NCBI GenBank assembly: GCA_018240425.1
Contig: JAFEFU010000064.1
Span: 1-64,000 of the forward strand
Length of the DNA stretch: 64,000 bases
Source of the DNA: Pseudomonadota bacterium
GTDB taxonomy: Bacteria; Pseudomonadota; Alphaproteobacteria; Rhodobacterales; Rhodobacteraceae
Direction of reading: 5' to 3'
Shown: piece after piece, positions 56,978-61,742 of the stretch
Layout: each line of letters starts with the position of its first letter
How positions within the stretch are numbered: the stretch's first letter is position 1
The notes under the pieces: generated by a model
What the model saw: only the letters and a program-made list of their open reading frames with translations
The model's database searches: none
Told to the model about the DNA's origin: nothing
Translations under genes and position numbers: made by a program

Positions 56978-57616
56978 TCAGTTGCCGCCGCCCGTATCGC
57001 CGCCCGTATCGCCGCCCGTATCGGCTGGCGGGGCCGCGCCGGGCTGGCCCTGGTCCGGCGGAGGCGCGGGCCGCTCCGGTCCCGCCCCAAGAACCTCGTC
57101 CAGACGCTGGCGCATGTCGTCGGTGGCGTCGATTGAGCGGGCCGAGACGAAGACCGCCCGGTTGTCGAGGATCGCGACCGCGCCGCGCGCGCGCAGGAGA
57201 TCGGCCATCACCGGCAGGGCGGCGGTGAAGAAATCCTGCCGCGCCTGGTCGCGGCGGGTGGCGATCTCGCGGGCCTTGCGGTCCTGCGCGGTGCGGATCC
57301 CGGTCACGCGCTGGTCGAAATCGTCGGCCAGCTTGCGGAAGTCGGGCGCCGGCATGGTGGGGCGGCGCTCGGTCAGGGATTTCTCCTCGGCGGTCAGCTC
57401 GGCCTCGATGCGGTTGTTTTCCGTTTGCAATGCCTGGCTTTCGGCGGCGATCTCGGCCTCGGCCCGCTTGCCCCAGAGCGACTGGTCATAAAGCCGCTCC
57501 TGGTCGATGGTCAGGATCGGGCTGGCGGGCGCCACTGCCTCCTGTGCCAGGGACGGCACGGCGGCCAGCACCGCCAGAACCGCCCCCCCGGCCAGACCGC
57601 GCAGCCGCCCGCCCAT
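56978..57616 (-). CDS. skp: OmpH/Skp-family periplasmic chaperone
   Basis: A 212-residue precursor. A signal peptide (VLAVLAAVPSLAQ) precedes ILTIDQERLYDQSLWGKR and a long coiled-coil arm (residues ~50-130: AEAEIAAESQALQTENNRIE) typical of Skp, which holds unfolded outer-membrane proteins for BamA. The C-terminal tail is low-complexity with three 12-base DNA repeats encoding DTGG. Its ATG overlaps the bamA TGA (TGATG). Confidence 0.87.
   Translation of the reverse strand: MGGRLRGLAGGAVLAVLAAVPSLAQEAVAPASPILTIDQERLYDQSLWGKRAEAEIAAESQALQTENNRIEAELTAEEKSLTERRPTMPAPDFRKLADDFDQRVTGIRTAQDRKAREIATRRDQARQDFFTAALPVMADLLRARGAVAILDNRAVFVSARSIDATDDMRQRLDEVLGAGPERPAPPPDQGQPGAAPPADTGGDTGGDTGGGN
56987..57022 (-). 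repeat. Three perfect 12-bp tandem repeats in the skp tail
   Basis: The unit GCCGCCCGTATC is repeated at 56987, 56999 and 57011. It encodes GGDT-type repeats at the C-terminus. The number of copies may vary between strains. Confidence 0.85.
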
Positions 57617-59934
57617 CAGAACTTGGTCGAGATGGTCAGGTCGAAGGTCTGTTCCTTGTCGTAGGATTCCTTCTTCAGCGGCTTGGCGAAGTTGATGCGC
57701 AGCGGACCGAGGGCGGAATCCCAGTAAAGCGACACGCCGACCGAGGCGCGCAGGTGCATCCGGTCGTCGATGGCGCCGGGGTTGTTCAGGCCCCAGACCG
57801 AGCCGGCATTGGCGAAGACGCCGCCGGTGATACCGTATTCCTCGGGCAGGCCGAGGGGGAAGCGCGCGTCGAGCCGGACGGCGGCATAATAGTTGCCGCC
57901 AAGCGCGTCCTGGTTCGGCACCGACAGGTCGCGCGGGCCAAAGCCGTTCGGCTCGAAGCCCAGCACCTTGCCGTTGCCGGTGAATCGGTCGAGATAGCGC
58001 GTGGTGCCGCCGTTCAGCGCCGTGACGACGCCGGCATCGGCTTCGGCATGAAGCGTGACCTCCTCGTGCATCACCTTGGTCTCGTAGGTCGCATTGGCGT
58101 TGGTCGTCACGGTCTTGATGTCGCCGCCCAGCCCGGCGAAGTCCTGGCCGAAGGTCAGAAGCAGCCCGCCGTTCGGATTGAGGCCGGTGATCCGCGTGTC
58201 GTAGGACAGGACATAGCCGACCGCGCTGGTGACCTCCGCCCCCCGCGCCTGATCGGCCAGAAGCAAGGGCGACGAACCGGTCGAGACCTTGGTGATCTTG
58301 TCGCTCGACAGCTTGTAGTGAAGGTCGAGGCGCATCTGCTCGGCGATCGGAAACTCGATTCCGGCCTGTGCCCCCAGCCGCTTGGTGGCGAACCTGGAAT
58401 GGGCATTGTCGGTCGTGTTGTACCAGCCCGACAGCTTCAGCTTCAGGTCGCGGTCAAGAAGCGACGGCTCGATGAAGGTGAAGGAATTGTCGTTGTTGTC
58501 CGAGGTGGTCGACAGGCTGAGGCTGAGATACTGGCCGCGGCCAAGGAAGTTCGACTCGGTCACGCCCACGTTCAGGCCGATCCCGTCCGCGACGCTGTAC
58601 GAGGCGCCGAACGTGAGCGAGCCGGTGGGCTTTTCCTCGACGTTCACGTCGACGATCACCTGGTCTTCCGAGTTGCCCTGCTTGGCGCTGACATCCGAGG
58701 TCTTGAAATAGTCGAGCTTGCGGATGCGGTCGGCGGCCTCGCGGATGGCGCGCGGGTTGAAGGGGTCGCCTTCGGCGATCTTGAACTGGCGGCGGATGAC
58801 CTTGTCCTGGGTGGTGGCGTTGCCCTCGATGTCGATCCTCTCGACAAAGACGCGCGGCCCCTTGGTCAGCACGAAGGTCACGTCAAGGGTCTGGGTCTGC
58901 GGGTTGCGGGTGATGCGCGGGTCGATCGACAGGAAGTCGATGCCCTTCCTCTCGGCGATCGCCTCCATCCGGCGGATGGTCGTGTCGATGGCCACCGGCG
59001 AATAGACCGCGCCCGGACGGATCCTGACCACCTTGGCGAAATCGGCGGCATCGACTCCGTCATACTCGCTGACGGTCGAGATATGGTTGAAGCTGTAGCG
59101 CTGGCCTTCCTGGATGTTGAAGGTCAGGAAGAAACCGTTGCGCTCGCGCGAGAATTCCGACGAGACGCCGCGCACCTGCGCGTCGATGTAGCCGCGCGAA
59201 TGGTAGAAATCGAGCAGGAGCTGCTTGTCGGCCTCGATCCGGTCGGGAACGAAGGTGTCGCTGCGGATCAGCGCGCGGAAGAGGCCTGCCTGCTTGGTCG
59301 CCAGCACCTGGCGCAGCCGGCGGTCGGAGAAGTCGCGGTTGCCGGTGAAGGACAGGCGCTCGACCTCGCTGACCTTGCCCTCGCGGATCTCGAAGACCAG
59401 GTCGACCTTGTTGTCGCCGCGGTCGATGACCTTGGGCTCGACCCGCGCCGCGATCCGGCCCTGGGCAACATAGGCCTGGGTGATGTTGGCCGCGTCGTCC
59501 TCGGCCTGCTTGGCCGAATAGACCTTGCGCGACTGCGACTTGATGAGCTTGGTCAGATCCTCGTCCTTGATCCGGCGGTTGCCCTCGATGCTGATGGCGT
59601 TGATCGTCGGATTCTCGGTCACGCGGATCACCAGCGTCTTGCCCGAGGGCACGACATCGACGGTGGCGAAGAGGCCCGAGGCGGTCAGCCGCTGGACCGC
59701 GTCGTTCAGGCCCGCGTCGCTGACCGGCTGGCCCTTCGGAATCCCGGCAAGCTTCAGGATCGTCGCCGGCTCGATCAGGGTGTTGCCCTCGACCTTGACC
59801 GCCGAGAACACATGGTCGGCGGCCAGCGCCGGCAGCGAGGCGACCGACAGGAACAGGGCCGCGCACAGGGCCGTGCCCGACAGCAATCCCCGTTGGAAAT
59901 GCCGTCCAGCCGCGCGCCGCTCTTGCCTCGTCAT
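57616..59934 (-). CDS. bamA: Outer-membrane protein assembly factor BamA
   Basis: A 772-residue outer-membrane protein insertase. A signal peptide (ALFLSVASLPALAA) is followed by five POTRA domains (residues ~40-430; first VFSAVKVEGNTLIEPATIL) and a C-terminal beta-barrel beginning near GSLTFGASYSVADGIG and ending TFDLTISTKF with the aromatic C-terminal residue. VRGVSSEF and FGLGFGQ-type barrel strands are present. It has its own strong promoter at 59976-60004 within the cluster. Confidence 0.96.
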   Translation of the reverse strand: MTRQERRAAGRHFQRGLLSGTALCAALFLSVASLPALAADHVFSAVKVEGNTLIEPATILKLAGIPKGQPVSDAGLNDAVQRLTASGLFATVDVVPSGKTLVIRVTENPTINAISIEGNRRIKDEDLTKLIKSQSRKVYSAKQAEDDAANITQAYVAQGRIAARVEPKVIDRGDNKVDLVFEIREGKVSEVERLSFTGNRDFSDRRLRQVLATKQAGLFRALIRSDTFVPDRIEADKQLLLDFYHSRGYIDAQVRGVSSEFSRERNGFFLTFNIQEGQRYSFNHISTVSEYDGVDAADFAKVVRIRPGAVYSPVAIDTTIRRMEAIAERKGIDFLSIDPRITRNPQTQTLDVTFVLTKGPRVFVERIDIEGNATTQDKVIRRQFKIAEGDPFNPRAIREAADRIRKLDYFKTSDVSAKQGNSEDQVIVDVNVEEKPTGSLTFGASYSVADGIGLNVGVTESNFLGRGQYLSLSLSTTSDNNDNSFTFIEPSLLDRDLKLKLSGWYNTTDNAHSRFATKRLGAQAGIEFPIAEQMRLDLHYKLSSDKITKVSTGSSPLLLADQARGAEVTSAVGYVLSYDTRITGLNPNGGLLLTFGQDFAGLGGDIKTVTTNANATYETKVMHEEVTLHAEADAGVVTALNGGTTRYLDRFTGNGKVLGFEPNGFGPRDLSVPNQDALGGNYYAAVRLDARFPLGLPEEYGITGGVFANAGSVWGLNNPGAIDDRMHLRASVGVSLYWDSALGPLRINFAKPLKKESYDKEQTFDLTISTKF

Positions 59935-59975: not shown

Positions 59976-60004
59976 TGACTAGCGGGATTGGGCACCCTTG
60001 TCAA
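59976..60004 (-). promoter_or_regulatory. Strong sigma-70-like promoter of bamA
   Basis: Read leftward, TTGACA (59999-60004) and TAGTCA (59976-59981) are separated by 17 bases, ~40 bases before the bamA ATG. It would drive bamA-skp-fabZ-lpxAIB separately from uppS-cdsA-dxr-rseP. Confidence 0.65.
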
Positions 60005-60110: not shown

Positions 60111-60275
60111 TTAGTTGAACGCGGCGCTGTGGGGAAGCTGGAGGTGCATCACCGCCACCGCGATCGCCGCCGCGACCATCAGGCTGACGATCACCGACAG
60201 GGGCGCGATCACGCCGTCGGCACGGCGTTGCACCAGCTGGTTCAGATCCCGGTAGCCATTGGCAAGCATATGCAT
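60111..60275 (-). CDS. 54-residue single-span membrane peptide between rseP and bamA
   Basis: An ATG at 60275 with GGAG eight bases upstream opens a 54-codon frame ending in TAA. The peptide has a polar N-terminus (MHMLANGYRDLNQLVQRRAD), one hydrophobic span (residues ~22-45, APLSVIVSLMVAAAIAVAV) and a short polar end (LPHSAAFN). No family is recognised. Its position 108 bases after rseP and its own ribosome site make it a good candidate small protein of the envelope-stress or BAM region. Confidence 0.6.
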   Translation of the reverse strand: MHMLANGYRDLNQLVQRRADGVIAPLSVIVSLMVAAAIAVAVMHLQLPHSAAFN

Positions 60276-60383
60276 CGTCGTCACTCCGCCCGTTATTGGT
60301 TTGGCGGCAGCATGGCAGACGATTGTGACCCGATTGCGGCAGGGGCGCGGCGGTTTGCGGCCGGACGGTGCGCGGCCCGGCGG

Positions 60384-61742
60384 TCAGGGGCAGATGATGT
60401 CGTTGGTCAGCCCGAAGGTCATCATCGCCAGGACCAGCATCAGCCCGACGGTCATCGCGATGTTCAGCACCCTCGGCGGCAAGGGTCTGCCGGTCGCCCA
60501 TTCGTAGGTGTAGAAGACAAGGTGCCCGCCGTCGAGCATCGGGATCGGGAAGAGGTTCATCAGCCCGATCGCCGTGGACAGGACCGCGATGAACCAGATG
60601 AAGTCGCTGATCCCCTGGCTGGCGACCTGGCCCGTGGTCTCGGCGATGCCGATCGGGCCGCGCATGTTGCACGACGAGATCTGCCCCGCCGCCACGTTCC
60701 ACAGGGCCGAAAGCGAGGTGCGCGCTATCGTCCAGGTCTGCTCGGCCGCGATCGGAACCGCCTCGCCCAGGCTGACCTTGCGCAGGGTCGGCGCGAAGAA
60801 GAAGTCCCCGGCGAGGCCGATCTTGTAGCTGGTCTCGAATCCGCCGCCGGGCTTGGGCAGGTCGGTCTCGCGCGGGGCCAGCGTCAGGGACAGGTCGTGG
60901 CTCGCCCCCCCGTCCCGGCCTGGGCGCCAGAGCGTCAGCCGCATCGGCGCCCCCTGCCCCTTCTCGACCGCCGCCTGCAGGTCGGCGAAGCGCTGGATCG
61001 GCCGCCCGTCGATCGCGGTGATCACGTCGCCCTTCTCGATCCCCATCGCCATCGCCGCCGATCCCGGCGACACGGCCTCGGCCCGGGGCGGCATCGGGAA
61101 GGGGCCGGGAACGTCGATCTCGGCCCCGTCGCGGCGGACCCGGTAGGTGACCTGCGCCTCGGGGGGCAGCGCCTCGGCCACCGCGCCGAGATCACCCCAG
61201 CCGGCTGTCGACCGTCCGCCGACGGCCAGGATCTCGTCGCCCGCGCGCAGACCGCCGGTGCCGCCCGGCAGCGCATTCAGGCTGCCGATCACCAGCCGGT
61301 CGGAGGGCGCGCCGGAAATCACGAAGATCAGCGAAAAGACGATGATCGACAGGATGAAGTTGAAGCCCGGTCCGGCGGCGACTGTCGCCGCACGCGCCCA
61401 GAGCGGCGCCCCGTGCATGGTGTGGCGCCGCTCCTCGGGGGTGAGGGCGGCCATCGTCGTCGTGTCCGCCCCGGCCGAAGCCGCGTTGGCGTCGCCCAGA
61501 AACTTCACATAGCCCCCGAACGGAAGGGCCGCGATCTGCCAGCGGGTGCCGCGCCGGTCGGTGCGCGACCAGAGCAGCGGCCCGAAACCCAGCGAGAAGA
61601 CCTCGGCATGGATGCCCGACAGACGGCCGACGATGTAATGGCCGTATTCGTGGACCGCGACGATCACCGACAGGGCGACGATGAAGGCCGCCGCCGTCCA
61701 GAACAGGTTGCCGAAAACCGGGATCAGTGCCGCAAAGTCCAT
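60384..61742 (-). CDS. rseP: Site-2 metalloprotease RseP
   Basis: An intramembrane zinc protease, 452 residues. The HExxH motif is in VAVHEYGHYIVGRLSGI (residues ~30-45), two PDZ domains follow (near residues 140-210 and 215-290), and the third ligand is in LFPIPMLDGGHLVFY. It cleaves anti-sigma factors or other single-span proteins, and in some alphaproteobacteria also polarity factors. It lies one base after dxr. Confidence 0.95.
   Translation of the reverse strand: MDFAALIPVFGNLFWTAAAFIVALSVIVAVHEYGHYIVGRLSGIHAEVFSLGFGPLLWSRTDRRGTRWQIAALPFGGYVKFLGDANAASAGADTTTMAALTPEERRHTMHGAPLWARAATVAAGPGFNFILSIIVFSLIFVISGAPSDRLVIGSLNALPGGTGGLRAGDEILAVGGRSTAGWGDLGAVAEALPPEAQVTYRVRRDGAEIDVPGPFPMPPRAEAVSPGSAAMAMGIEKGDVITAIDGRPIQRFADLQAAVEKGQGAPMRLTLWRPGRDGGASHDLSLTLAPRETDLPKPGGGFETSYKIGLAGDFFFAPTLRKVSLGEAVPIAAEQTWTIARTSLSALWNVAAGQISSCNMRGPIGIAETTGQVASQGISDFIWFIAVLSTAIGLMNLFPIPMLDGGHLVFYTYEWATGRPLPPRVLNIAMTVGLMLVLAMMTFGLTNDIICP

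Follow-up and report, generated by a model that had tools for sequence, protein, structure and literature searches.

The window, meaning the whole stretch of 64,000 nucleotides of Rhodobacteraceae DNA analysed here, carries a short gene for a putative membrane protein between rseP and bamA, with all three genes on the minus strand. The neighbours were assigned from family models: rseP, coding for the site-2 protease, occupies positions 60384–61742 (TIGR00054, 251.2 bits against a cut-off of 147.55), and bamA occupies positions 57616–59934 (TIGR03303, 656.9 bits against a cut-off of 297.15). The small gene at 60111–60275 begins with an ATG at 60275–60273, and its stop codon ends at 60111, which gives a frame of 54 codons followed by the stop (MHMLANGYRDLNQLVQRRADGVIAPLSVIVSLMVAAAIAVAVMHLQLPHSAAFN); using an alternative GTG start at 60284 would extend the product to 57 residues. 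A Shine-Dalgarno-like GGAG, read from the sequence, lies at 60284–60287 (minus strand), 8 nt 5' of the ATG, and the top 19-residue Kyte-Doolittle mean of the protein is 2.62. The preliminary description had reported a 54-residue single-span protein with a good ribosome site in the rseP-bamA gap without naming a strand, and both the frame and these properties were recovered as described, with the minus strand now added. An open reading frame arising by chance was rejected as an explanation, because 400 rounds of dinucleotide shuffling of the 449-nt gap never produced a frame comparable in length and hydropathy (at least 52 amino acids with a 19-residue hydropathy mean of at least 2.1). We regard 60111–60275 as a genuine conserved gene, predicted to encode a small membrane protein of Rhodobacteraceae.

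A tblastn search with the window protein gave matches at E ≤ 1 in 20 of 61 genomes, and, besides the gene itself, the match was located between rseP and bamA in 10 of the other 19. An iterative profile seeded with six members (the window copy and five tblastn matches) identified a homologous frame, always on the coding strand, in 83 of 86 rseP-bamA gaps, or 78 of 81 when loci fetched twice were counted once, from a set that leans to close relatives and consists of the best 80 of 557 rseP relatives plus the loci from the tblastn searches. Six of these 80 loci were left out of the gap analysis, as no bamA start was found in them (L049, L066, L081, L084, L091 and L095); L081 contains a member of the family near the contig end. 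The preliminary description had let its observation depend on a conserved frame at the rseP-bamA site within the family, and the search for such a frame did not refute it. Because the gap profile had been seeded with the window copy, a second profile was built without the window's genus. Among 1186 six-frame segments of the window, the small frame alone was above the threshold of this profile, with an E value of 1.5e-8 (next best 0.3). At E ≤ 0.01, the family profile matched 144 of 198 Rhodobacteraceae genomes, each representing one genus, with a single match in 141 and a second, weak match in three; the other 54 genera gave no match at this threshold. No match was obtained outside of the Rhodobacteraceae: four of 289 genomes of the class matched at E ≤ 0.001, and all four belong to this family.

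The rseP-bamA gaps holding a member span 317–2011 nt, with a median of 448.5 nt. All three misses among the 86 gaps are Haematobacter loci (L056, L059 and L062), where bamA is present, the small gene is absent, and the gap measures 215 nt. Among the 17 no-match genomes with rseP and bamA adjacent in the matches listed, 13 have a gap of at most 316 nt. As for the longer gaps, that of genome G063 contains a strong operator box of the type described below (score 28.3) together with a hydrophobic frame, located after rseP, that fits the family poorly (E = 0.66), and that of G185 contains a short frame resembling the N-terminal motif of the family (E = 0.23; positions 2955–3074 of L159, minus strand), which is possibly a decayed copy of the small gene. 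Neither a box nor a motif-like frame was found in the longer gaps of G094 and G105. The short frame of G185 ends with YSGLSLLIDL, representing the N-terminal motif without the helix.

The protein is under purifying selection in its relatives, the window copy not being covered, as it occurs in none of the pairs compared. All 44 pairs of relatives that agree in length and are at least 60% identical had a pN/pS ratio below 0.5. Pooling 12 close pairs resulted in a ratio of 0.16 in frame versus 1.58 and 3.02 in the shifted frames, and the substitutions in these pairs were distributed over codon positions 1, 2 and 3 as 63, 25 and 186.

The majority consensus of the family reads MxxxxxGYRGLSLLxxLNxDRxL and continues into a helix in which A, G and L abound; the N-terminal motif GYRGLSLLxxLNxDR forms a short segment ahead of this single hydrophobic helix; the window protein shows ADG in place of the DR found in most members. 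Of 74 members, 71 reach a top 19-residue hydropathy mean of 1.6 or more. Lysine and arginine residues are more numerous on the N-terminal side of the helix than on its C-terminal side in 70 of the 74 and equally numerous in four, and 60 members have none after the helix. By the positive-inside rule, a K/R-rich N-terminal side predicts an N-in/C-out orientation, and this charge distribution therefore suggests that the protein may reside N-in/C-out in the inner membrane. AlphaFold2 modelled one helix from residue 5 to 46 (mean pLDDT 72, pTM 0.39). A small-xxx-small pattern is present in the helix of all 74 members and is thus uninformative, and GxxxG occurs in 31. Scanning the 74 members against Pfam and NCBIfam at E ≤ 0.01 yielded only stray matches of single members (CrcB, Cyt_bd_oxida_II and Glycoamylase), and the one for which a cut-off was given stayed under it with 16.2 of 27 bits. 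A PDB sequence search with the family profile gave no match at E ≤ 1. The small protein is therefore without a family in Pfam, NCBIfam or PDB, and among the titles and abstract openings of the literature we found none naming a protein at the rseP-bamA site.

Upstream of the small gene lies the tandem operator GCCGCAAT-CGG-GTCACAAT (60322–60340, minus strand), a predicted ChvI-type box. The corresponding motif of the family is GCC-N-(A/C)-A-(A/T)-T-NNN-GCC-A-(C/T)-A-(T/A)-T, followed after 7 nt by TA-N3-T. The window copy matches this extended pattern at 60313–60340 with two mismatches; its second GCC has degenerated to GTC, leaving this copy without a strict GCC-N8-GCC, and the presumed -10 element, CATGCT at 60309–60314 (minus strand), deviates at the first T from the family consensus TANNNT at such spacing. 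Because of the two mismatches in the box and the replacement of the DR motif by ADG, the window copy may be drifting. The GCC-N8-GCC repeat is present in 61 of 78 upstream spacers versus 8.0 in shuffles (largest 15), while the spacings N7 and N9 occur in 15 and 16 spacers versus about 8 in shuffles (largest 16 and 13), and the bamA-side spacers contain GCC-N8-GCC in nine cases. Because the motif was derived from the small-gene spacers, the scores obtained there are not independent (25.5 for the window box; low values of -1.3 in L070 and 5.3 in L072), in contrast to those of the genome scans; the maximum over 100 randomly chosen segments of 300 nt, serving as null, was 14.2. Scores in genomes with rseP and bamA separated (see below) were 26.4 (L143), 20.1 (L147), 17.6 (L145), 9.1 (G113) and 9.0 (L141), the last one being low although tandem GCC repeats are present. 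From these data we predict that the small gene has its own promoter with a conserved operator.

The small-gene box of the family equals the ChvI consensus of S. meliloti, N-GCC-N8-GCC as cited in PMC9731502, in letters and spacing. The extended box was also present upstream of chvI in three other alphaproteobacterial families (three of the 29 class loci read), although the single mismatch in two of these three boxes falls on the TA of the -10 element, which counts against ChvI, as do the two mismatches in the window's own box. In the window's own genome, a response regulator and a kinase are encoded beside an HPr-kinase gene, which is the order expected of chvI-chvG (PMC4550343), and its ChvI shows 69% identity to the ChvI of L283, a locus carrying the box. 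We therefore consider it likely that ChvI of the ChvG-ChvI envelope-stress system recognises the tandem GCC-N8-GCC box. The alternative that an OmpR-family regulator other than ChvI reads it draws on the chvI loci of the Rhodobacteraceae themselves, where none of the 300-nt upstream regions scored above the null maximum of 14.2 (best values 13.9 and 11.5) in the 18 of 20 loci in which chvI was found; a bare GCC-N8-GCC is present in seven of these 18 regions. Autoregulation of chvI was thus not found in this family, although belonging to the ChvI regulon does not require it. Moreover, the motif described for Caulobacter ChvI is another one, TTGC-N3-GCAA, in which N3 is mostly GCC (PMC9731502). 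Against such a reader stand the agreement with the S. meliloti consensus (PMC9731502) and the boxes before chvI in three other families, and we rate it as rather unlikely. CenR, considered as a specific candidate from the same regulator family, was rejected, because its motif TGA-N8-TGA (PMC9275681) does not fit the box. If ChvI reads the box, the small protein would be made under the control of ChvG-ChvI.

To assess the linkage of the small gene to its neighbours, we used the 118 of the 144 matching genomes with all three positions among the matches listed, and in 113 of them neither rseP nor bamA is more than 800 nt away from it. For the other 26 of the 144, the distance to the single neighbour listed is at most 263 nt in 20 genomes, and neither neighbour is listed in six. 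A genome counted as split if more than 800 nt separated rseP from bamA or if the two were on different contigs. In the split genomes G080, G136, G065 and G083, the small gene is positioned 207–381 nt from bamA and away from rseP, the separation from rseP being just 1.7 kb in G083. In a further one, G113, it is found near a contig end, with rseP and bamA on other contigs. It was thus left with rseP in none of the five split genomes that carry a member; the split genomes G099 and G195 gave no match. Because the upstream genes differ among the split loci of G080, G136 and G065, we infer that these separations are independent. Five of the loci in which we found no bamA following rseP (L049, L066, L084, L091 and L095) have no member within 3 kb after rseP (1.3 kb in L066). 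Since four of them are from Roseovarius, the absences there probably represent one event. With four cases near bamA versus none near rseP, the separations are suggestive, not proof, of a linkage to bamA rather than to rseP.

These observations bear on the idea, put forward in the preliminary description because of the position of the gene, that the small protein, encoded beside the protease RseP, serves as its substrate or modulator. The close neighbourhood of the three genes in 113 of 118 genomes fits this proposal, as does a short single-span protein predicted to be N-in/C-out. This is the orientation of classic RseP substrates, so the predicted topology would allow such a role. However, the small gene never stayed with rseP in the five split genomes that carry it, it is missing after rseP in the five loci named above, and it has its own predicted regulated promoter. 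Nothing we found favours a role with RseP over other ones; the proposal is not supported, and we consider it improbable. The neighbourhood alone would have misled the search for a function.

On the other side of the small gene, 3' of its stop codon, a separate bamA promoter was predicted at 59976–60004 (minus strand; TTGACA-N17-TAGTCA). Each of the 78 spacers that separate the small gene from bamA contains TTGAC followed by TA 17–19 nt further on, versus 1.6 in shuffles, and we predict a sigma-70-like promoter of bamA at this site. The -10 element of the window copy ends in A instead of T (TAGTCA), and many relatives show TAGTCA or TACTCA there. One could also imagine that the small open reading frame is a leader whose translation controls bamA, given that most of the genomes listed have it a short distance upstream of bamA and that it accompanies bamA in four of the five splits. 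Yet the promoter-like site lying between the frame and bamA in all 78 spacers (although longer transcripts are possible), the conservation at the protein level, the location away from bamA in G113 and the three Haematobacter loci with bamA and no small gene all argue against a leader, which we judge highly improbable.

We extended the search for the box to whole genomes. Allowing up to one mismatch, the extended pattern gave 93 matches in 80 Rhodobacteraceae genomes versus four for the reversed pattern, and 19 of the 93 are the small-gene promoter by their coordinates. Of the other 74, 44 are followed by the start of a frame of at least 60 amino acids 20–75 nt downstream, with a Shine-Dalgarno-like site in 31; no such downstream gene was seen for the remaining ones. 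Fifteen matches precede a protein of 112–124 residues (about 114) with, as judged by eye, one hydrophobic segment, for which one representative scanned gave no Pfam match. It was seen in L168, L171, L184, L197, L204, L210, L218, L220, L227, L229, L230, L233, L239, L243 and L244. Ten box-downstream representatives were scanned against Pfam, eight of them as first parts of longer or equal-length frames. The box precedes a D-Ala-D-Ala carboxypeptidase at three loci and a trypsin-like protease at two, and it is followed by two TadE-like proteins, one above and one just below the cut-off. In the window's own genome, up to two mismatches gave eight sites versus none in the control; one of them is the small-gene box, and the other seven form no clear envelope set. 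In the own genome (G000:C43:8143-8170; L232, L275) and in G005 (L170/L252), the box is followed at a distance of about 240 nt by the start of a large protein, and the two proteins have a common N-terminus. Across 114 genomes of the class, we obtained 55 matches versus five in the control, and 29 of the 53 matches outside of the own genome were read. Three of these loci have the box before chvI (L283, L285 and L291), seven before a gene which we take to be yebC (L288, L290, L292, L300, L307, L308 and L309), two before a gene presumably coding for PBP1a and one before a gene presumably coding for a Do-type protease, while the other 16 have no recurrent gene.

Taken together, we favour the reading that the gene encodes a small N-in/C-out inner-membrane protein under ChvG-ChvI control, which probably assists or modulates an envelope machine; from sequence comparison, we assign this reading a probability of roughly 0.6. 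The protein might act as an accessory subunit or modulator of a larger envelope complex, and its function may be linked more closely to the bamA side than to RseP. A more specific alternative is that the protein, tuned by ChvI, is dedicated to helping the assembly of outer-membrane proteins from the inner membrane. In four of the five cases where it is separated from rseP, the gene is found near bamA, and the upstream genes differ among G080, G136 and G065; this points towards such a helper, and the same box precedes envelope genes in other genomes, such as the one for D-Ala-D-Ala carboxypeptidase. In contrast, BAM is located in the outer membrane and the small protein is predicted in the inner one, G113 breaks the linkage to bamA, and the four bamA-side cases may just reflect the positions of the breakpoints; such a helper is conceivable, if doubtful. 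Returning to the ChvG-ChvI-controlled modulator, its furthest extension, which we put forward very tentatively, is a protein widespread in Rhodobacteraceae that couples envelope stress to outer-membrane protein assembly: active ChvI would lead to synthesis of the protein encoded next to bamA, which would then, from its place in the inner membrane, tune how outer-membrane proteins are delivered or checked for quality. If this were true, there would be a predicted ChvI regulon of Rhodobacteraceae that includes a second protein without a Pfam family, the one of about 114 residues. A conserved gene without a Pfam or NCBIfam family in a widely studied bacterial group now has a candidate regulator. 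In addition, the box predicts a ChvI regulon for the Rhodobacteraceae, of which we found no description in literature titles and abstracts, and directs attention to additional envelope proteins that lack a Pfam family.

Small bitopic membrane proteins such as CydX, KdpF, AcrZ and MgtS usually act through a larger membrane partner. The small protein resembles them in being shorter than about 60 residues with one helix and differs from them in its lack of Pfam, NCBIfam or PDB matches and its restriction to Rhodobacteraceae among the genomes sampled. Known substrates of RseP include RseA and signal-peptide remnants, and like these, the small protein has a single span predicted to be N-in/C-out; the gene was not left with rseP where the locus is split, a linkage that would support such a role without defining it. 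The CenKR regulon of Rhodobacter sphaeroides (PMC9275681) offers a parallel in the tandem direct repeat of an OmpR-family regulator before envelope genes, whereas its CenR motif is TGA-N8-TGA and bamA is absent from the main text of that report. Compared to the known ChvI regulon, the control of the small gene is predicted from sequence, and chvI is without a scoring box in 18 genomes of the family; like the genes regulated by ExoS/ChvI, ChvG/ChvI and BvrS/BvrR, however, the small gene carries the tandem GCC-N8-GCC of the S. meliloti consensus (PMC9731502) at the place of the -35 element.
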